NCBI GenBank assembly: GCA_013151915.1
Contig: JAADHJ010000001.1
Span: 1-50,287, forward strand
Direction: 5' to 3'
Length of the DNA: 50,287 nt
From: Deltaproteobacteria bacterium
GTDB lineage: Bacteria > BMS3Abin14
Below the pieces are notes generated by a model. That model made no database searches and was not told the DNA's origin. It worked only from the letters and a program-made list of their open reading frames with translations. Below, in pieces: positions 3,771 through 38,121 of this stretch. A program made the position numbers and the translations under genes. How positions within the stretch are numbered: position 1 is the stretch's first letter; every line of letters begins with the position of its first letter.

Positions 3771-3940
3771 ATTGAATACCTGCTTGTCAATGCCGGGAAA
3801 TGATCTTGATATGAACCTCCTTCCATGCTAAAGTTCCCATAAAGCATTAAGTATGACTTGACGGTTACGCGGATAGCGTCGCAACGTAGGTCGCTGTGCC
3901 CGTGGCTCGCGTTTTCCCCGTCCGGTCATGGAAGGTGTCT

Positions 3941-12001: not shown

Positions 12002-12474
12002 CGGGATTGCCGCGTCACTCTCGTCTGCCTCGATGCTCCTCGCAATGACAGCGAAATAATAAATGTACGCATTAACCGGATGAACCGACTTCTAAGGCTT
12101 ACTAACCGCTGATGCACGCTGATTCTCGCTGATAAATCTAAGTCTAAACCTTAGGGGTTGAACTTAATCCGCGTCCATCTGCGTTCATCCGCGGTAAATG
12201 ACTTCAAGACTTATTGGCCGCTGATGCACGCTGATTTCCGCTGATAGATCTAAAACTGAACCATAATATGGGGGGGTGTCTCCAGTGAGACAGCGAACGG
12301 GTGGTGAAATAATGTGCCTTGTTGCGGAGAGCAGCTCTTTAACCCGAAAGATTTCAGGTTTTATCCGCTTCCGATGTTTGCCTTATCCCTTCCATCCCCT
12401 TCATCCCTGTTAGACCAAGCCTTTGCATCCGCTTTTCCCCTCTGGACACTGGACTCTGGACTGATTTACCCCGT
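12002..12474 (-). repeat. Composite intergenic repeat block, copy 1 (inverted relative to copy 2)
   Basis: Three repeat words stand in series and, read on the minus strand, keep the same order as at 36450-36760. First (12374-12463) is a word holding GTCCAGAGTCCAGTGTCCAG and GGATGCAAAGGCTTGGTCTA. Second (about 12106-12252) is two copies, at 12106-12140 and 12218-12252, of a 35-base unit CCGCTGATGCACGCTGATT...CGCTGATA, with TCCGCGTCCATCTGCGTTC between them. Third (12002-12060) is a word with TCATTGCGAGGAGCATCGAGG. No coding potential is seen. Confidence 0.75.
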
Positions 12475-20025: not shown

Positions 20026-20035
20026 TCATCTTTTG

Positions 20036-20252
20036 ATAGGGTCGTAAAAAATCCATCCATTTTCGCGGCCCTGAGTGGGCGCGATGATAACTTCTTGCGA
20101 AGCCATCATCTTTGACAGGGTCGTAAAAAGCCCATTAATGGTTTTTTACTCCACGGAAAGCGAAAAGTGTCATTTTCACTTTCCTCACAAATCTTCGATT
20201 TGCGCGGCCCTGAGTGGGCGCGATGATAACTTCTTGCGAAGCCATCATCTTT
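20036..20252 (-). repeat. Tandem pair of hairpin-rich repeat element (family A), one internally deleted
   Basis: Two copies of the element found at 31655, 34711 and 35610, here in the opposite orientation. Copy 2 (about 20115-20252) is the fullest form. Read on the minus strand it has a hairpin GATGATGGCTTC/GAAGTTATCATC, then a GCGCCC/GGGC hairpin, then CAAATC-GAA-GATTTG, then the conserved TGACACTTTTCGCTTTCCGT word, and finally a hairpin GTAAAAAACCA/TGGGCTTTTTAC. Copy 1 (about 20036-20113) lacks the middle. A 50-base segment is identical in both (20064-20113 and 20203-20252). No coding potential. Confidence 0.8.
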
Positions 20253-29626: not shown

Positions 29627-31180
29627 TTGAAGCTGGTCACCCCTGCGCAGATGAGGGAGATCGACTCCAGGGCCATACGGGAGCTCGGGATTCCATCCAT
29701 GGTTCTTATGGAAAATGCGGGTCTTTCTCTTGTTGAAGAGGTTGAGAAACGCCTTTCCGAAGGACCCGGGAAGATATCGGTTATCTGCGGGCCCGGGAAC
29801 AATGGAGGCGATGGCATGGTGGCTGCCAGGCACCTCGCTGACCGGGGGCACGAAGTGCTGGTGTTTCTGGCCGCGCGAAAGAGTTCCTTCCGTGGGGATG
29901 CGAGGGCCCAACTTCGCATTCTAAGGAAGCTGGGCATACCTGTCCGGGTAGTCGGTTCTCCCGCCGACGTGGAAATGGAGCGAAGGCGCCTGGAGAATTC
30001 CGACGTCGTCATCGACGCGCTTTTTGGTACGGGCCTCCACAGGGAGATCGATGGGCTGCCGGCGGAATCGGTCAGGGCCATAAACGCCTGTCCGGGCATT
30101 GTTATCTCCGCAGACATCCCCTCCGGTATCAACGGTAAAACCGGTTTTCCCATGGGTGAGGCTGTGACGGCTGACGTGACGGTGACTTTTGCCTACCCTA
30201 AACTGGGGCTCGTTCAATATCCTGGAGCTCATTTCGCCGGAGAAATCGTTGTTGCCGATATCGGCATCCCCCGGGCCGCGGAAATCGGAACGGAGTTTCC
30301 CGGGAAAATTTCGGGGCCCGAAACGGTCACTTCCGGCTTTTCCCGGCGATGGGAGGATTCCCATAAGGGTACCTTCGGACACCTTCTGGTCTGTTCCGGG
30401 TCCATAGGGAAAACCGGCGCCGGAATCCTTGCGGCAAAGGCCGCTCTTGGCTCCGGGGCGGGTCTGGTGACCCTCGCTCTGCCCGTGTCTGCGGTTTGGG
30501 CGGTGGATGCCGCAGTTCCGGAGGTTATGACGGCCCCGATTCCTGAAACCAGCGATGGAACCCTCTCCGCCAACGGGAAGAATGCCTTGAAACAGCTTAT
30601 CGGGGAGAGGGACGCCATGGCCATCGGACCGGGACTCACAGTGCAGGCAGAGACCGCGGCCCTGGTGAGGGATGTTCTCTCCTGGGACGGATTTCCCGTC
30701 GTGGTTGATGCCGATGCCCTGAACGCCCTGAGCGGAAATCCGGAATATCTGCGCAAAAGGAGAGGGGAAACGGTTCTGACACCCCATCCAGGGGAGATGG
30801 CCCGGCTGCTTGACTCAAGCACATCCATGGTCCAGGGGGATCGGGTGGGGGCAGCCCTCTCCTGCTCCAGCAGGTCCGATTGCGTTGTCGTTCTTAAGGG
30901 TGCCGGGACGGTTGTGGCCGCCCCGGATGGTAGATTTTTCATTAATCCCACAGGAAATCCAGGCATGGCGACAGCGGGCGCCGGTGATGTTCTGACCGGG
31001 ATGATCGGTGCTCTCCTGGCCCGGGGCGAGGATGCCCTTACAAGCGCTCTGGCTTCCGTTTATCTTCACGGGGTTGCCGGCGACCTGGCCGCTGAAGCGT
31101 TAACCCAGCACAGCCTGACGGCCGTCAGCATCCTTGACAACATCGGCCCGGCGTTGAGAAGCGAGGATGTGGATGGGTGA
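29627..31180 (+). CDS. nnrDE: Bifunctional NAD(P)HX epimerase / ADP-dependent NAD(P)HX dehydratase
   Basis: 517 residues from TTG at 29627, eight bases after GGAGAAG. An earlier in-frame TTG at 29606 lies inside acpS and lacks such a site. The N-terminal YjeF_N epimerase domain (1-215) has MREIDSRAIRELGIPS and GPGNNGGDGMVAARHL. The C-terminal ribokinase-like dehydratase domain (about 235-515) has GHLLVCSGS and GAGDVLTGMIGALLA, the latter near the nucleotide site. The protein repairs hydrated NAD(P)H. Fusion of both domains is common in bacteria. Confidence 0.94.
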   Translation: MKLVTPAQMREIDSRAIRELGIPSMVLMENAGLSLVEEVEKRLSEGPGKISVICGPGNNGGDGMVAARHLADRGHEVLVFLAARKSSFRGDARAQLRILRKLGIPVRVVGSPADVEMERRRLENSDVVIDALFGTGLHREIDGLPAESVRAINACPGIVISADIPSGINGKTGFPMGEAVTADVTVTFAYPKLGLVQYPGAHFAGEIVVADIGIPRAAEIGTEFPGKISGPETVTSGFSRRWEDSHKGTFGHLLVCSGSIGKTGAGILAAKAALGSGAGLVTLALPVSAVWAVDAAVPEVMTAPIPETSDGTLSANGKNALKQLIGERDAMAIGPGLTVQAETAALVRDVLSWDGFPVVVDADALNALSGNPEYLRKRRGETVLTPHPGEMARLLDSSTSMVQGDRVGAALSCSSRSDCVVVLKGAGTVVAAPDGRFFINPTGNPGMATAGAGDVLTGMIGALLARGEDALTSALASVYLHGVAGDLAAEALTQHSLTAVSILDNIGPALRSEDVDG

Positions 31181-31201
31181 TCTAGCCATATGGAGTTGCC
31201 G

Positions 31202-31657
31202 ATGTTAAAAGCGTCACAGATGATGAAAAAAACGTTCCTGACCGTTTCTCCCGATATGGGGGTTGAGGAACTCGCGCGGCTCTTTTCAAGGCGGCATATT
31301 ACCGGGGCGGTCGTGGTGGACAAGAAGGGTAAACTTCTTGGGGTAGTGACCGGAAGCGACCTCATCGCCAAAGAGAAGAACCTTCACCTGCCCACGGTCG
31401 TCTCGCTCTTCGATGCGGTGATCTACCTGGAGAGTTCCGAGCATTTCAAGGAAGAACTTCATCGGATGCTCGCCAGCAAGGTCGATGATATCTATACCAG
31501 GAACCCGGTTACCATCAAACCCGACACCACCCTGCCTGACATCGCCACCCTCATGACCGAGGATGGTATCCATTTTCTGCCCGTTATGGAGAACGGTCAC
31601 GCCACCGGTATTGTTGGAAAACGGGAAATTATCAAAGCTCTAGCTTCAACCGGTTGA
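31202..31657 (+). CDS. CBS-domain pair protein
   Basis: About 151 residues made of two CBS motifs: the first near 1-60 (MMKKTFLTVSPDMGVEELA to KLLGVVTGSDLI), the second near 95-150 (IYTRNPVTIKPDTTLPDIA to GIVGKREIIKAL). CBS pairs (Bateman modules) bind adenine nucleotides and regulate a partner. No catalytic domain is attached, so the partner is unknown. An ATG at 31190 is in frame, but the one at 31202 has GGAG at six-base spacing and is preferred. The stop codon TGA is the first three bases of a dispersed hairpin element (31655). Confidence 0.85.
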   Translation: MLKASQMMKKTFLTVSPDMGVEELARLFSRRHITGAVVVDKKGKLLGVVTGSDLIAKEKNLHLPTVVSLFDAVIYLESSEHFKEELHRMLASKVDDIYTRNPVTIKPDTTLPDIATLMTEDGIHFLPVMENGHATGIVGKREIIKALASTG

Positions 31658-31870
31658 TGACTTCGTAAGAAGTCATCAACTCAGCGAAAATCAGCGTGCA
31701 TCAGCGGCCAATAAGCCTTAAAAATTCCTTTACCGCAGATGAACGCGGATAATATTTAACCACTGCGCCCATTAAGGGGCGCCCAAATCGAAGATTTGTG
31801 AGGAAAGTGGAAATGACATTTTTCGCTTTCCGTGGAGTAAAAAGCCATAAATGGACTTTTTACGACCCTG
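31655..31870 (+). repeat. Family A hairpin element split by a second repeat
   Basis: The element begins at the CBS-gene stop with TGATGACTTC-GTAA-GAAGTCATCA (31655-31678, perfect 10-base stem). After TCATCAAC it is interrupted by 84 bases (31681-31764) of the TCAGCGTGCATCAGCGG / ACCGCAGATGAACGCGG repeat seen at 12106-12252 and 36582-36700. It then resumes with GCGCCC-ATTAAG-GGGCGC (31765-31782), CAAATC-GAA-GATTTG, the CTTTCCGTGGA word and the hairpin GTAAAAAGCCA/TGGACTTTTTAC (31837-31863). The tsaE start follows eight bases after the end of the element (31870). Confidence 0.8.
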
Positions 31871-31877
31871 CCAGAGG

Positions 31878-32366
31878 ATGAACGAGTCTGAGTCTCTTTG
31901 CATCACCGGGCCCGAGGAGATGCTGGTCCTGGGGATGACCGTTGGAAAGCATGTATTCGATGGCGCCGTCATTGGCCTCTCGGGGCCTATGGGTGTGGGG
32001 AAGACGACCCTTGTACGAGGTGTAGCGGAGGGTATGGGGATCACCGAGGGACATTCTGTTTCCAGCCCGACATTCACCATCCTGCAAAGCTATCCATGCC
32101 GTGAGTTGACCCTGTACCATCTTGACCTCTACCGGATTTCGGGAAGAGAGGACCTCGATTCCACCGGCTACCGGGATGTCTTCGGCGGCAGCGGAGTCAT
32201 CGTCATCGAATGGGTTGAACGGGAGCCGGACTCCATGACCCCCGAGAACCTGATAATTGAGATGGAATATGAAGAGATCGGCAGGAAGGTTGTTTTTTCC
32301 CCGAAAGGAGACGCATACAGATCACTGGCGTCCTCGGTTATTGACGAGTATCTCATACTTCATTGA
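31878..32366 (+). CDS. tsaE: tRNA threonylcarbamoyladenosine biosynthesis ATPase TsaE
   Basis: 162 residues. TsaE is the ATPase that works with TsaB, TsaD and TsaC in making t6A37 of ANN-decoding tRNAs. Walker A is GPMGVGKTT near 36-44, followed by SSPTFTILQSY and LYHLDLYRI, the family's conserved segments, and VIVIEWVERE. The frame is open upstream to 31851, but that part lies in the repeat element, so the ATG at 31878 is preferred despite a weak ribosome binding site (AGAGG directly adjacent). Confidence 0.93.
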   Translation: MNESESLCITGPEEMLVLGMTVGKHVFDGAVIGLSGPMGVGKTTLVRGVAEGMGITEGHSVSSPTFTILQSYPCRELTLYHLDLYRISGREDLDSTGYRDVFGGSGVIVIEWVEREPDSMTPENLIIEMEYEEIGRKVVFSPKGDAYRSLASSVIDEYLILH

Positions 32367-32435
32367 CACCTCCCGGGCCTGGTGATAAGAAAATGTCCTT
32401 CTTTGGTATGGATCAGCTCACGGAAAGGATTCCCA

Positions 32436-33605
32436 ATGGAAGAGTTCTACCGAATAAAAAGACTGCCGCCCTACGTTTTCAACATTGTCAACGAGCACAA
32501 ATACAAGGCCCGGGTCAGGGGTGATGATATCGTTGATTTCGGCATGGGCAACCCCGATCTTCCTACGCCTCCCCATATCGTTGAAAAGATGCTTTCGGCC
32601 GTAAAGGACCCACGGAATCACCGATATTCCGTCTCCCGAGGGATATATAAACTTCGATCCGCAATGGCCGACTGGTACGACAGAAGGTACAGCGTGAACC
32701 TGGACCCTGATACCGAGGTAGTTGCCACCATCGGTTCCAAGGAGGGTATTTCACACCTGATCCTCGCTATGGTAGCGCCCGGAGACACCGTGATTGTCCC
32801 GGATCCATGCTATCCAATCCATTTTTACAGCGCGGTCATCGCCAACGCCGACGTCAAAAGCGTCCCCAGTCTTGGCAATGAGGATGACTTCCTCGCGGGA
32901 GTGGAAGAAACGATCAAGGGTACATGGCCGAGACCGAAGATCCTCATGCTCAACTATCCCAATAACCCCACGACCTATACGGTCCAGCTTTCCTTTTTCG
33001 AAAGGGTAGTTGAATTGGCCAGGGAGTATGAACTGTTCGTGATCCATGATCTGGCCTACTCGGATATCGTCTTTGATGGCTACAGAGCTCCCAGCCTGCT
33101 TCAGGTGCCGGGTGCAAAGGATATCGGCGTCGAGATATTCACACTTTCGAAGAGCTACAATATGCCGGGGTGGCGTGTGGGGTTCGTTGTGGGAAACCCG
33201 AGGCTTGTAGGGGCCCTGGTCCGCATAAAGAGTTATCTGGACTATGGGATGTTTCAACCTATCCAGATAGCTTCCATAATAGCCCTGAACGGTCCCGAGG
33301 AGTGCGTCAAGGAGACGGTTGAAATTTACCGGCACCGCCGTGATGTCCTCGTTGAGGGGTTGAATCGGATCGGGTGGGAGGTGGAAAAACCTAAGGCGAC
33401 GATGTTCGTATGGGCCCCCATCCCCGAAAAATTTCGTGAGATGGGAAGCCTTGAATTTTCACTCATGGCCATGAAAAAAACCAAGGTGGCTGTATCTCCC
33501 GGGATCGGTTTCGGTGCCGGGGGTGATGGTCATGTACGGTTCGCTCTTGTGGAGAACGAACACAGGACGAGACAGGCTGTTCGCGGGCTGCGTGCGCTGT
33601 TCTAA
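32436..33605 (+). CDS. alaC: Alanine transaminase AlaC-type, PLP-dependent
   Basis: 389 residues of class I/II aminotransferase. The N-terminal [14 protein letters not shown], the [18 protein letters not shown] segment and the [20 protein letters not shown] and [20 protein letters not shown] stretches closely match E. coli AlaC, which makes alanine from pyruvate and glutamate. The PLP lysine is in [12 protein letters not shown]. Related LL-diaminopimelate aminotransferases share the fold but not this close a match. The ATG at 32436 has AAAGGA seven bases upstream; 18 upstream in-frame residues are disregarded. asd follows 51 bases later. Confidence 0.9.
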
Positions 33606-33656
33606 ACATAAGTAGAGAACATGGGACTCCGGTCCCTGGAACGAGGGGAAGTTCAG

Positions 33657-34679
33657 ATGGGCAAAAAAAATTTTTCGGTGGCTGTCGCCGGCGCTACCGG
33701 CGCCGTGGGAGAACTGATGATTAAAGTCCTCCAGGAGAGGAACTTTCCGGTCAGGGAGATCCGTTACCTCGCTTCGTCCCGTTCCAAAGGAAAAATCCTC
33801 AAGTGGAGGGGTGAAGATGTGTCCGTCAGGGAACTGACGAAAGACTCATTTTCCGGGGTTGATATCGCACTGTTTTCCGCCGGTGGTGAAAGAAGCCGGG
33901 AATTTGCCCCGGCGGCGGTGGAGGCCGGGGCGGTGGTCGTGGATAACTCGTCGGCGTTCCGAATGGACAGGGATGTGCCCCTGGTCGTCCCCGAGGTCAA
34001 TCCCGGGGACGCAGGACAGTTTGCAAAGAAAGGGATTGTGGCCAACCCGAACTGTACTACCATTATCATGGTAGTGGCGCTCAAGCCCCTTTACGACTAC
34101 AGTCGGATCAAAAGGGTTATCGTCTCAAGCTACCAATCAGCAAGCGGCGCCGGAGCCAAGGGCATCGAGGACCTGAAAAAACAGACGAGGGACTGGAGTA
34201 ACGGTAACCCACTGGAGGTCCAGGCATTTGCTCATCCGCTGCTCTTTAACGTGATCCCGCACATAGATTCCTTCCTTGAAAATGGCTATACCAGGGAAGA
34301 GATGAAGATGCACAACGAGACCCGCAAGATGTTCCATGACGATGAGATCCAGGTTACCGCAACCTGTGTCAGAGTGCCGGTTCTGACTGCCCATTCCGAG
34401 GCTGTGAACATAGAGACCGAAAACGAGATCACACCGGAAAAGGCCAGGGAAATTCTGTCGGCCGCTCCCGGGGTTGAAGTGCTCGACGACCCGGCGGGAA
34501 ATAAATATCCGATGCCCATCTATAGCGCCGGCGGTGACGTCTGCTACGTGGGAAGGATCAGAAAGGATTATTCCACAGGGAACGGCCTGGCATTCTGGGT
34601 TTCGGGCGACCAGCTTCGGAAGGGCGCTGCGACCAACGCCGTCCAGATTGCGGAGATCCTTGCCGAGAAGTACCTCTAG
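33657..34679 (+). CDS. asd: Aspartate-semialdehyde dehydrogenase
   Basis: 340 residues. Asd reduces aspartyl phosphate with NADPH, the branch point to lysine/diaminopimelate, methionine and threonine. The N-terminal NADP motif is AVAGATGAVGELMIKVL. The catalytic cysteine is in ANPNCTTIIMVVAL near 129, and the SYQSASGAGAKGIEDL segment follows. The ATG at 33657 has GAGGGG eight bases upstream, so 12 earlier in-frame residues are dropped. Length and motifs match the long-chain bacterial form. A hairpin element follows the stop, then ecfT and truA. Confidence 0.96.
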   Translation: MGKKNFSVAVAGATGAVGELMIKVLQERNFPVREIRYLASSRSKGKILKWRGEDVSVRELTKDSFSGVDIALFSAGGERSREFAPAAVEAGAVVVDNSSAFRMDRDVPLVVPEVNPGDAGQFAKKGIVANPNCTTIIMVVALKPLYDYSRIKRVIVSSYQSASGAGAKGIEDLKKQTRDWSNGNPLEVQAFAHPLLFNVIPHIDSFLENGYTREEMKMHNETRKMFHDDEIQVTATCVRVPVLTAHSEAVNIETENEITPEKAREILSAAPGVEVLDDPAGNKYPMPIYSAGGDVCYVGRIRKDYSTGNGLAFWVSGDQLRKGAATNAVQIAEILAEKYL

Positions 34680-34710
34680 GAGCCTGGTGGAGAACCCTGC
34701 CGGACTCCTA

Positions 34711-34780
34711 ACGCGCCCAGTGAAAATGACACTTTTCGCTTTCCGTGGAGTAAAAAGCCACGGATGGACTTTTTACGACC
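34711..34780 (+). repeat. Family A hairpin element, copy lacking the first hairpin
   Basis: Matches the copy at 35610-35702 from ACGCGCCCAGTGAAAATGAC to TTTTTACGA with very few changes. It keeps the terminal hairpin GTAAAAAGCCA/TGGACTTTTTAC (34750-34776) but not the TGATGACTT hairpin. It lies between asd and ecfT, and the T-run could help end transcription. Confidence 0.75.
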
Positions 34781-34802
34781 ATATCTAAAGTGGCCATAAA
34801 AA

Positions 34803-35612
34803 ATGCGCTGGTTTCAGGACATCACTCTGGGCAACTATTATCCTGCCGAATCGGTCGTGCACCGCCTTGACCCGCGTCTGAAAATGACCTCCATGGCCTT
34901 GTTGATGGGTATGACCTTCGCCGTCAGCAATCCGTGGGCTGTTTTGTTGCAATCATTCGCGCTTCTTGCGGCTGTATGGCTGTCCCGAATCCCCATGACC
35001 TATTTCCTGAGGAGCCTGAGGTTCTTTGTCTGGCTCTTTTTCTTCACGGCGGTTCTCCACCTGTTCTTCACCCCCGGAGAGCCCATTCCCGGCAGCCCTT
35101 TTCTGGGATTTATCCGGATCACACACGAGGGGATAGCTGAAGGCGGGCTCATATCATGGAGGCTTATTACGGTTATCGCCCTCTCTTCCCTCCTGACCGC
35201 CACCACTACCCCCCTTGAGATAACCAGGGGTATGGAATCCATCCTGTCACCGCTGGAGAAGCTGCGTTTCCCCGTTCAGGATTTCTCCCTCATGATGATG
35301 ATGGCCATCAGGTTTATTCCCGTGCTTTCGGATGAAACCCAGAAGATCTGGAAAGCGCAGAAATCCAGAGGGGCCGATCTGGGACACGGAGGGATAAAGA
35401 GAAGGGCCAACGCTCTTGTCTCCATCCTGTTGCCGGTTTTCGTCGGCCTCTTCAGACGAGCAGATGACCTGGCAAAGGCCCTGGAGGCGAGGGGATATGT
35501 GCCGGGGGGGCGCAGGACAAGCATGAAGCAGCTTCTCTGGACCGGCAGGGAGAGCCTGGCCCTTATCGTAATCCTTATCTGGGCATCGGCGATTCTGACC
35601 CTCCAGTTTTGA
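34803..35612 (+). CDS. ecfT: Energy-coupling factor transporter transmembrane protein EcfT
   Basis: 269 residues of the CbiQ/EcfT family, the scaffold subunit of ECF vitamin/metal importers. It has HRLDPRLKM at the N-terminus, hydrophobic segments at about 28-45, 70-85, 110-130 and 245-265, and the two Ala-Arg-Gly coupling-helix motifs AQKSRGADLG and ALEARGYVPG that bind the ATPases. No EcfA ATPase or substrate-binding S component is encoded nearby, so it must pair with subunits made elsewhere. Its place between asd and truA matches my recollection of deltaproteobacterial genomes. The TGA stop (35610-35612) is the first codon of a repeat element. Confidence 0.88.
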   Translation: MRWFQDITLGNYYPAESVVHRLDPRLKMTSMALLMGMTFAVSNPWAVLLQSFALLAAVWLSRIPMTYFLRSLRFFVWLFFFTAVLHLFFTPGEPIPGSPFLGFIRITHEGIAEGGLISWRLITVIALSSLLTATTTPLEITRGMESILSPLEKLRFPVQDFSLMMMMAIRFIPVLSDETQKIWKAQKSRGADLGHGGIKRRANALVSILLPVFVGLFRRADDLAKALEARGYVPGGRRTSMKQLLWTGRESLALIVILIWASAILTLQF

Positions 35613-35702
35613 TGACTTTGTAAAAAGTCATCAACGCGCCCAGTGAAAATGACACTTTTCGCTTTCCGTGGAGTAAAAAGCCACGAATGGACTTTTTACG
35701 AT
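35610..35702 (+). repeat. Family A hairpin element starting on the ecfT stop codon
   Basis: It begins with TGATGACTTT-GTA-AAAAGTCATCA (35610-35633), whose first three bases are the ecfT stop. It continues AC-GCGCCCAGTGAAAATGACA and the CTTTCCGTGGA word, and ends with the hairpin GTAAAAAGCCACGAATGGACTTTTTAC, which runs 35673-35699 with a one-base bulge. It lacks the CAAATCGAAGATTTG part seen at 20115-20252 and 31765-31870. truA begins 25 bases later. Confidence 0.8.
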
Positions 35703-35727
35703 CTAATTCAGATATGGCTTTGAACCC

Positions 35728-36501
35728 GTGAAAAGGCTTGTACTTACCATCGAGTACGACGGGACCTTCTTCCACGGCTGGCAGGTACAGCCCGGCCTTC
35801 GGACTGTCCAGAGGGATATGGAGAATGCGTTGACCTGTATGATGGGTCAAACGATCAGGGTGTCAGCCTCGGGAAGAACAGACGCCGGTGTTCATGCCCT
35901 TGCGCAGGTGGCCCACTGTGATGTTCCCAAAAGGATTCCACCTGAAAACGTAGCGCTGGGGTTAAACAGCCTCCTGCCCGGAGATGTGAGGGTGGTTGAC
36001 TGCAGATGGGCCCCCGAGGGTTTTCACTCGCGTTTCAGCGCAACTGGGAAAAGATACCGTTATCTTATCCTCAATCGTCGGAAACCCACGGCTCTCCTCA
36101 GAAACAGGGTATGGAATGTCCGGCATCCCCTGGATCTGGAGAGTATGAGGGCAGGCGCTTTTCACCTCATAGGGGAGAAAGATTTTTTCGCCTTCCGGTC
36201 CTCCGGAGATCCCGGAACAACTGTGAGGGAGATGAGGGAGATCTCCATCGAACAGAACGAAGATATCGTCACCATCTTCTTTGAGGCCAATGGATTTCTC
36301 AAACACATGGTCAGGAATATCACGGGCGCTCTCGTTGAAGTGGGAAAAGGCAGGATGTCGCCGGGGGACCTGAAGAAACTCCTGGATGCCGGGTCCCGCC
36401 TGAATGCTCCCCGTAAAGCTCCCGCCCAGGGGCTGACCCTGATGGAAGTGTATTACCAGTCCAGAGTCCAGTGTCCAGAGCCAACAGTCCAGAGTCTGTA
36501 G
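35728..36501 (+). CDS. truA: tRNA pseudouridine(38-40) synthase
   Basis: 257 residues. TruA isomerises uridines 38-40 in the anticodon arm. The N-terminal LTIEYDGTFFHGWQVQP and the catalytic-aspartate motif SASGRTDAGVHALAQV (Asp about 53) are clear. The C-terminal half has FLKHMVRNITGALVEVGKG. The start is GTG at 35728. The normal family end (GLTLMEVYY) is followed by 14 extra residues (QSRVQCPEPTVQSL) read from a dispersed repeat that also occurs at 12374-12463, so the stop codon is supplied by the repeat. The catalytic part is intact. Confidence 0.94.
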   Translation: MKRLVLTIEYDGTFFHGWQVQPGLRTVQRDMENALTCMMGQTIRVSASGRTDAGVHALAQVAHCDVPKRIPPENVALGLNSLLPGDVRVVDCRWAPEGFHSRFSATGKRYRYLILNRRKPTALLRNRVWNVRHPLDLESMRAGAFHLIGEKDFFAFRSSGDPGTTVREMREISIEQNEDIVTIFFEANGFLKHMVRNITGALVEVGKGRMSPGDLKKLLDAGSRLNAPRKAPAQGLTLMEVYYQSRVQCPEPTVQSL

Positions 36502-36810
36502 GGGAAAAGCGGATGCAAAGGCTTGGTCTAACATGGATGGAGGGGATAAGGCAAGCAATGGAGAAAAGCAGGCTATGGGCTATGGCCAATAAGCCTTAAA
36601 GTCATTTACCGCGGATGGACGCAGATGGACGCGGATAAGGTTTTGCCACAATGATCAGGTTTTAGTTTTAGACCTATCAGCGGAAATCAGCGTACATTTA
36701 TTATTTTGCCGTCATTGCGAGAAGCATCGAGGCAGACGAGAGTAACGCGGCAAGCATTGAACGTTCTTTTTCTCTGTCACGTTGAACTTTGAACGTTGAA
36801 CATTCTTTAT
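36450..36810 (+). repeat. Composite intergenic repeat block, copy 2
   Basis: Same series as 12002-12474 in the opposite orientation. GTCCAGAGTCCAGTGTCCAG and GGATGCAAAGGCTTGGTCTA come first (36458-36560). The GGCCAATAAGCC / TTTACCGCGGATGG / ATCAGCGGAAATCAGCG unit follows (about 36582-36700). CGTCATTGCGAGAAGCATCGA comes last (36708-36755), and then a run of degenerate GTTGAACGTTGAAC words extends to 36810. The first part overlaps the 3' end of truA. The rest is non-coding. Confidence 0.75.
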
Positions 36811-36957
36811 ACTGCACCTATAGCCTGTTTAATCCATGAGGGTGGCATCCCTATTGACGACTTCACAAAAAATCCTTATGCTTCCGCAAGGCCTTTTGTT
36901 TAATAGTCCGGGAAATTGGGATGGAGAAAACCAAACGGGATAAAATAGGAGAGGGTT
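36502..36957. other. Gene-free stretch between truA and livK
   Basis: About 455 bases. Most of it to 36810 is the composite repeat block; the remainder holds the liv promoter (36854-36882) and a leader of about 70 bases. No gene is seen. Confidence 0.6.
36854..36882 (+). promoter_or_regulatory. Sigma-70-type promoter of the liv operon
   Basis: TTGACG (36854-36859) and TATGCT (36877-36882) stand exactly 17 bases apart, 75 bases before the livK start. This is the best promoter match between truA and livK. Confidence 0.6.
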
Positions 36958-38121
36958 ATGATGAAGAAAAAAAGCTTGGTCTGGAAACTGGCATTAGTCG
37001 CAGTGGGGCTCACCTTTATTTTCGCTGCGTGTGCGAAGAAAAAGGAAGAGGCAAAGGTTGAAAAGGCGATTAAAATCCCTGTCGCTTCGCCCTTCACCGG
37101 GCCGCTCGCAACATTCGGTGAGGGTGTTAAGAACGCCGCCCTGCTGATGGGTGAGGAAGTTAACGCCGCAGGTGGGATCAACGGACGAAAGGTAGAGATC
37201 GTTCTCGGCGATGATCTCTGTGATCCAAAGGAAGCCGCCAACGTCGCCACCAAATTCGCCGCCGATCCTGATGTCTACATCGTCATCGGGCATCTGTGCA
37301 GTTCCTCCACCATGGCCGCCCTTCCCATCTATAAGGAAGCCAAGCTTCCGGCCATCTCCCCGGCGAGCACAAACCCCTCCATCGGGAAGATGAGCCCCTA
37401 CTACTTCCGCGACGTTTACAAGGATGATTTCCAGGGTGTTTTCCTTGCCAAGTACGTCAAAAAAGCCATGGGGTGGAATAAAATCGCTGTTTTTTACGAA
37501 ACCAACGATTATTCCATAGGTCTGAAGAACGCCTTCGAGGGCGAAGCCAAGACCCTGGGAATTAAGATCGTCGGCGAGGAGGCCTATACCAGCGATACGA
37601 CGGACTTCACCCCCCAGCTCACCAAGATAAAAAGTTCAAAACCCGACGCAATCTTTATCCCCGGATACGCGCCTCAGGCAACCCTCATTATCTCGCAGGC
37701 CGCCAAACTCGGAATGAAGGTAGGGTATTTCGGTGCCGACGGTCTGGATGACAAAATTATGCTGGAAAACCCCGATGCCGAGGGGCTCCTCATTACCAGT
37801 CCCTTCCTTCCCGACAAGGCCGGACCGGGCGCTCAGGGATTTATCAAAGCCTACAAGGCAAAGTACGGTGTGGAGCCGAACTGGTTTGCCGCCAACACCT
37901 ACGACGCCGTTGGGATGGCTGTGCAGGCTATCAGGAAAGTCGGCACGAACAGGGAGAAGATCAGGGATTACCTTGCGTCCATGAACTCTCCGGAGAAAGC
38001 CTACAAGGGCGTGACCGGCGCCACCTATTTTGACGAGAATGGAGACTGCCTTAAACCAGCTTTTGTCAAGACAATCCGCAACGGAAAATGGCTCAGCGCT
38101 GAGAAACAGATGACGGACTGA
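36958..38121 (+). CDS. livK: Branched-chain amino acid-type ABC transporter substrate-binding lipoprotein
   Basis: 387 residues, type I periplasmic binding protein of the Leu/Ile/Val family. The N-terminus MMKKKSLVWKLALVAVG ends in a lipobox-like FAAC (Cys about 25), so the protein is probably membrane-anchored. The mature start IKIPVASPFTGPLATFGEG and the motifs INGRKVEIVLGDDLCDP, SPASTNPSI and FYETNDYSIGLKNAFE are typical. Related receptors bind amides, urea or aromatic acids, so the ligand is not certain. It starts at an ATG after AGGAGAGGG. A strong hairpin follows the stop, so it is probably expressed above the permease genes. Confidence 0.92.
   Translation: MMKKKSLVWKLALVAVGLTFIFAACAKKKEEAKVEKAIKIPVASPFTGPLATFGEGVKNAALLMGEEVNAAGGINGRKVEIVLGDDLCDPKEAANVATKFAADPDVYIVIGHLCSSSTMAALPIYKEAKLPAISPASTNPSIGKMSPYYFRDVYKDDFQGVFLAKYVKKAMGWNKIAVFYETNDYSIGLKNAFEGEAKTLGIKIVGEEAYTSDTTDFTPQLTKIKSSKPDAIFIPGYAPQATLIISQAAKLGMKVGYFGADGLDDKIMLENPDAEGLLITSPFLPDKAGPGAQGFIKAYKAKYGVEPNWFAANTYDAVGMAVQAIRKVGTNREKIRDYLASMNSPEKAYKGVTGATYFDENGDCLKPAFVKTIRNGKWLSAEKQMTD

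Follow-up and report, generated by a model that had tools for sequence, protein, structure and literature searches.

A MITE-like hairpin repeat whose TGA-initial left end can coincide with the stop codon of the upstream gene in a deltaproteobacterial genome

Two perfect hairpins lie in the window (the whole stretch of 50,287 nucleotides that was analysed), at 31655-31678 (TGATGACTTCGTAAGAAGTCATCA) and 35610-35633 (TGATGACTTTGTAAAAAGTCATCA). Both have zero mismatches, and 100 shuffles gave 0 matches; a whole-window inverted-repeat search at the settings used did not recover the two. The first TGA of each hairpin is the stop of the upstream ORF, as the original prediction had claimed. These ORFs encode a CBS-domain protein (31190-31657; PF00571) and a CbiQ/EcfT protein (ecfT, 34803-35612; PF02361), while the genes downstream of the hairpins encode TsaE and a tRNA pseudouridine synthase, respectively (all by Pfam). 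The RNA of the left hairpin folds at −14.9 kcal/mol in copy 1 and −12.6 kcal/mol in copy 2. In both, a T precedes the TGA and an A follows the stem, giving a palindrome of 26 bp in these copies; the outer T-A pair is present in just 86 of 137 relaxed hairpins genome-wide, so that the element proper begins at TGAT. Each hairpin makes up only the left end of an element that extends further, and the following features were assigned in the window.

31655..31678, + strand: left-end hairpin of element copy 1; 31655-31657 is the TGA stop of the CBS-domain ORF 31190-31657
31679..31762 (approximate limits), + strand: second, unrelated repeat type (GATGCACGCTGATT / GCAGATGAACGCGGAT-like), nested in copy 1 directly after the hairpin, by comparison with the element consensus
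31763..31872, + strand: rest of the body and right end of copy 1 (hairpins 2-5; end CGACCCTGCC)
31873..31881, + strand: AGA GGA TGA, apparent remnant of the native CBS C-terminus and stop, from alignment with genome G001; its TGA overlaps the tsaE ATG at 31878
34710..34786, + strand: left-truncated copy lacking the left hairpin, upstream of ecfT and after ORF 33621-34679; 99% identity to copy 2 across 69 bases
35610..35633, + strand: left-end hairpin of element copy 2; 35610-35612 is the TGA stop of ecfT (34803-35612)
35634..35702, + strand: linker and right-hand hairpins of copy 2, internally shortened
20113..20247, − strand: full-length copy, first of a tandem pair
20034..20108, − strand: internally deleted copy, second of the tandem pair

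The CBS gene of G001 ends in ...ACC AGG GGA TGA at the place matching 31873-31881 of the window, and the protein ends as STRG-TGA in the nearest relative, as against STG at the element TGA in the window. In the sister species the CBS stop overlaps the tsaE start (ATGA), whereas in the window it lies 220 bp upstream of that start. Judged from these alignments, copy 1 together with the nested second repeat has evidently given CBS a new stop 1-2 codons early and parted the formerly overlapping CBS and tsaE genes by 220 bp. The element also supplies an in-frame ATG at 31851 upstream of tsaE (31851-31880), through which automatic annotation may lengthen TsaE by nine residues, mostly element-encoded. 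The second repeat type (CCGCTGATGCACGCTGATTCTCGCTGAT / GCAGATGAACGCGGAT) is itself interspersed, with a further instance at 12094-12265. At the other site, ecfT orthologues extend 1-2 residues beyond the ecfT of the window. At the same place, the 3' end of ecfT in G001 carries an apparent shortened or decayed copy, and that in G006, a genome of another genus (L117), carries a copy in the opposite orientation, within which a TAA ends ecfT. Repeated hits on the ecfT-truA gap are therefore probable.

The genome to which the window belongs (2,274,580 bases, 60 contigs) contains 99 zero-mismatch copies of the hairpin pattern, all of which were read; they form the basis of the distance table described below. 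A DNA search of the same genome with copy 2 as query returned 76 matched pieces, and relaxing the hairpin to ≤2 mismatches gave 167 forward and 158 reverse matches, in which palindromes are counted twice. From left to right, the element consists of the left hairpin, a G+C hairpin (GCGCCC...GGGCGC), CAAATC...GATTTG, GGAAAGTGAAAA...TTTTCGCTTTCC, GTAAAAAGCCA...TGGACTTTTTAC and the end CGACCCTATCA. The consensus RNA folds into five hairpins at −53.3 kcal/mol, compared with −28.7 kcal/mol for shuffled sequence (z −7.0). Copies with a clear right end fall into two main sizes, 134-136 and 154-155 bp, besides deleted forms, and tandem copies at 138-139 bp spacing are recurrent. Several contigs of this genome end in or near element copies (L083, L092, L099, L112 and others), where the repeat probably breaks the assembly. 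Twelve genomes of the family, this one among them, and 29 from outside it were sampled for the hairpin at ≤1 mismatch: 11 of the former and 0 of the latter contain it, and the one family genome without it, G002, is complete.

These properties are those of a MITE. The element is short, carries no transposase gene and is present in many copies (full copies of 134-155 bp, 99 copies). Its consensus start TGATGACTTCGCAAAAAGTC and end GGACTTTTTACGACCCTATCA form an imperfect inverted repeat with the termini TGAT.../...ATCA, the terminal sequence being TGATNNNNTCG(C/T)AAAAAGTC in inverted orientation. Target site duplication is indicated by the flank counts: of the 30 copies whose right end is clear, 9 have the same 4-mer on both sides (1.2 expected when flank pairs are shuffled; shuffle maximum 6) and 3 have the same 5-mer (0.34 expected). 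The 4-mers are identical in only those 9 of 30, many copies having decayed.

Other identities were considered and set aside. As most copies begin with (T)TGAT, insertion of the IS200/IS605 type 3' of TTGAT was examined; palindromic elements derived from IS200/IS605 are not known to have a target duplication, and the 4-bp flank duplications (9/30) argue against this route. Mobilisation by RAYT/Y1 proteins is disfavoured in that seven of the loci around Y1 matches (L268-L272, L277, L278) contain neither hairpin nor right end, and G002 carries Y1 genes yet 0 copies of the element. The GTAG/GTGG-type foot of RAYT-mobilised REPs is also lacking, as the hairpin begins with TGAT and its upstream flank is AANNT. 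An intrinsic terminator, which calls for a G+C-rich stem and then a U run, was rejected, as reading of the copies showed that A(C/T)GCGCCC, and no T run, typically comes after the left hairpin. The Rfam 15 covariance models gave 0 matches at E≤1 in 30000-37000, and the element consensus had no match in the plasmid collection. With regard to an autonomous partner, a check of the spacing of ends in the loci examined revealed no left and right ends bracketing a transposase.

The relation of the element to gene ends was elucidated by tabulating the distance from the upstream stop to the element TGA for all 99 copies, as the original prediction had proposed. In place of a standard gene finder, genes were called with a purpose-built scorer of frame-specific 4-mers, for which 30 window ORFs served as the training set; the stop position is independent of the start chosen by it. 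Orientation was set by the element body, ten copies being re-oriented in this way, and 13 of the 99 have no called gene on one side. The gene beside the left end is co-directional in 63 of 99 copies, and in 16 of these 63 the element TGA is the exact stop (distance −3). The other distances are −37 (four copies), −56 (two), 0 (one), +1 (one) and +3 (four), the remainder ranging from 11 to 1010. The concentration of 16 of 63 copies at one exact offset refutes chance coincidence, in which two among many intergenic copies would merely happen to begin on a TGA; just two cases are visible in the window, as such an account would have it, and its probability is considered negligible. Counting read-through cases, 33 of 99 left ends and 4 of 56 right ends are found ≤20 nt from where a co-directional gene ends (p 0.0002). 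Among the relatives, 4 of 28 co-directional copies (48 examined) lie at −3, one of them at a doubtful 35-aa ORF, so the exact class is weaker there.

In the −37 and −56 classes, the reading frames of six genes continue into the element and end in element-coded tails of 11-17 residues, which are of the form DDF(V/A)KSH..A(H/R) in L072, L081, L108 and L112, and MTSQKVI.AP..GR.N. in L093 and L097. As the L108 tail is also found in G001 (FDDFAKGHQSAH), element tails can persist. In L112, with the left end at 3827, the junction is one base off that of G001 (GGA-TGATGA vs GGAT-TGATGA), and the immediate stop becomes a DDDFAKSHHRAR tail.

The frame classes stand at 16 (the −3 class) : 4 : 2, which deviates from equal frames (p 0.0004). 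An insertion without any preference for stops has to be weighed here: the element would insert anywhere, only insertions at gene ends would survive, and the in-frame ones, ending at the element's own TGA, would seem aimed. All three frames are indeed found, a distance of −3 arises from any in-frame insertion, and the element TGA precedes the native stop by 1-5 codons in L094, in L081/2668 and in the two copies of the window. The comparison of C-termini with orthologues bears directly on this account. The 16 genes of the −3 class were compared, of which 13 were testable against an element-free reference; L080, which has no orthologue, and L055 and L066, for which only G001 was available and carries hairpin remnants there, were left out. 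The results for the 13 genes are as follows.

L042: ends at the exact native stop; reference G008, also G001
L088: exact native stop; reference G008
L102, L104, L105, L110: exact native stop; reference G001
L111: exact native stop; references G008 and G002
CBS: not exact; one residue shorter than in G001 and G008 and equal in length to G002, scored on G001
ecfT: not exact; two residues shorter than in G008 and G002
L081/2668: not exact; two residues shorter than in G008 and G002
L094: not exact; five residues shorter than in G001
L101: not exact; one residue longer than in G001, its own right flank (AGTTAAAAAG) suggesting an exact TAA
L062: not exact; tail encoded by the right end of the preceding element

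Seven of the 13 genes thus end at exactly the native codon, which is improbable under a null of 1/8, assumed uniform over the last eight codons (p 0.0004), and also under 1/5 (p 0.007); this argues against insertion without stop preference. Of these seven, L110 has TAG as its native stop and the other six have TGA, the L111 orthologue reading TGA in G008 and TAG in G002. L104 retains the native TGA just past the 4-bp flank of the element, reading ATCA-ACGT-TGAAAACGCCGG against GTT-TGA-AAGCACCGG in G001, or, in the shorter reading, ACGT-TGAAAACG against GTT-TGA-AAGC. In the six non-exact genes, the element TGA lies within about five codons of the native stop, or the tail is replaced. In L062, presumably panC, a minus-strand hairpin lies at 3848, and the C-terminal PLMDSLRHNQN apparently comes from the right end of one element and is stopped by the TGA of the next.

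The two readings offered at the outset, preferential insertion at stop codons and termination of genes by an in-frame TGA brought by the element, can be judged from these data. The first is supported by the seven exact native stops and by the target profile given below. The second is upheld by both window copies, which stop 1-2 codons early, by L094, which stops five residues early, and by six genes that stop inside the element. As far as sequence comparison can tell, insertion at native stops and element-supplied stops both occur.

To keep it free of circularity, the target preference was derived from 52 left and 38 right flanks, all belonging to copies that have no co-directional stop ≤20 nt away. 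This off-stop profile reads AANNT, followed by roughly TGAA. When applied to 598 gene ends of G001 over positions −9 to +12, it gave the top mean weight exactly before the stop, 12.0, with neighbours of 6.1 and 8.2. Of 48 non-tandem right ends, 9 have a TGA immediately behind the 4-bp flank, where the background is 1.7% per position (p 1e-7), and TGA-like sequence also follows 7 of 38 off-stop insertion sites. That a motif learned elsewhere peaks at stops, and that TGA-like sequence is found away from them, further speaks against indiscriminate insertion, which is regarded as unlikely. TAA stops score at least as high as TGA stops under the profile. The position just before the stop takes 5.8% of the profile weight between −24 and +60, 4.9-fold over uniform (598 G001 genes). 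As the motif alone predicts only about 6% of the insertions from −24 to +60 to lie exactly at the stop, fewer than observed, a second factor is required. The predicted ratio of the exact class and the classes one base to either side is about 12 : 6 : 8 as compared to the 16 : 4 : 2 seen (p 0.03), which suggests that tailed insertions have been lost.

A role of the element in the transcript was also weighed, whereby the mRNA stem in the entry channel of the terminating ribosome would slow termination, protect the 3' end or alter re-initiation. It accords with the 32 of 99 left ends lying inside or ≤15 nt from the end of an upstream co-directional gene, with the pairing of the stem at inner positions in 123-135 of 137 relaxed copies, and with a precedent in E. 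coli, where REPs ≤15 nt from a stop can stall ribosomes, as described in the available part of PMC12306157. In light of this stalling, the 32 copies would be good test cases. However, 66 of 99 left ends lie away from stops, and the general sense bias (51 vs 15) vanishes when the near-stop copies are removed (22 vs 15, p 0.32). Further, the stem changes are mostly one-sided, making covariation weak, and sister species lack the element, or have decayed copies, at orthologous stops. Such a function is accordingly rated as quite improbable.

These observations are probably explained by a MITE-like mobile element that favours TGA-like targets and restores the stop through its own TGA ends, together with selection against tails. 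Such an element, small and non-autonomous, of about 135-155 bp and with five hairpins, would have the hairpin described at the outset as its left terminus and would insert with a duplication of about 4 bp at AANNT plus a TGA-like site. Since a TGA stop and its context resemble this target, insertions would gather immediately 5' of stop codons, and since the element itself starts with TGA, the stop would be re-made in place. An insertion off by one base or a few codons would lead to an early end at the element TGA or to a tail of 11-17 residues, and selection against gene damage and tails would enrich the clean class. Transposition, by a transposase, would be the mechanism, with selection as the remaining factor.

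A stronger version, that the effective target of the element is the stop codon itself, mimicked by its termini, such that the end TGA and the target TGA are interchangeable and frame and stop stay intact, is put forward tentatively, its probability falling somewhat short of even. If true, the element has a built-in harmless landing through a universal 3-bp signal, allowing some hundred copies to settle in a genome of 2.3 Mb, tight operons included, and landing also parts formerly overlapping genes such as CBS and tsaE. The element shows how a repeat can spread at low cost in dense operons, where, owing to the sequence of its ends, the stop is a good landing site that is automatically repaired. 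It also offers, as natural examples, proteins with trimmed or extended C-termini and a gene pair that has lost its stop-start overlap (CBS/tsaE), in which effects on termination and coupling can be tested. Literature searches, by sequence strings in full text and for a stop-codon-directed MITE in titles and abstracts, a scope outside which subscription papers mostly fall, returned no account of this element or of such a MITE.

Tn7 at glmS and the integrases that re-make gene 3' ends are known cases of harmless 3'-end insertion with the coding end preserved, each relying on one specific site and a dedicated target-recognition protein. The present element is likewise harmless at the 3' end and keeps the coding end, but it is non-coding and inserts at a short, degenerate site. 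Among MITEs, as portrayed in the available parts of PMC2229807, PMC2759123 and PMC5896051, RU-1, RU-2/YPAL, Correia/NEMIS and QMITE2 are likewise short, with inverted repeats, target duplication, many intergenic copies and RNA hairpins, and some of those inserted at gene 3' ends encode the new C-terminus of the protein (RU-1 in ECA3499, QMITE2 in Coxiella enhC). Most MITEs in the accessible portion of PMC2229807 have a TA motif at their ends, in contrast to the TGAT/ATCA ends and AANNT...TGA flanks seen here. REP/BIME sequences with RAYT are likewise short palindromes of tens to hundreds of copies, often near ORF 3' ends, but their feet are mostly of the GTAG/GTGG type, in place of TGAT (PMC2817692, PMC12306157, from the parts available). 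Rickettsia palindromic elements, too, are palindromic repeats that become parts of proteins; they are read through in frame (PMC10969869, in part), while a gene hit by the present element most often stops at once, tails being limited to six in 99 copies. In the available parts of PMC2229807, PMC2759123, PMC5896051, PMC10969869, PMC2817692 and PMC12306157, the repeats documented at the 3' ends of genes extend the protein by some residues or take a stop away, and an element re-making the stop is not described. As compared with the MITEs known from these sources, a sizeable fraction of the copies of the present element starts exactly on a native stop and makes that stop anew.
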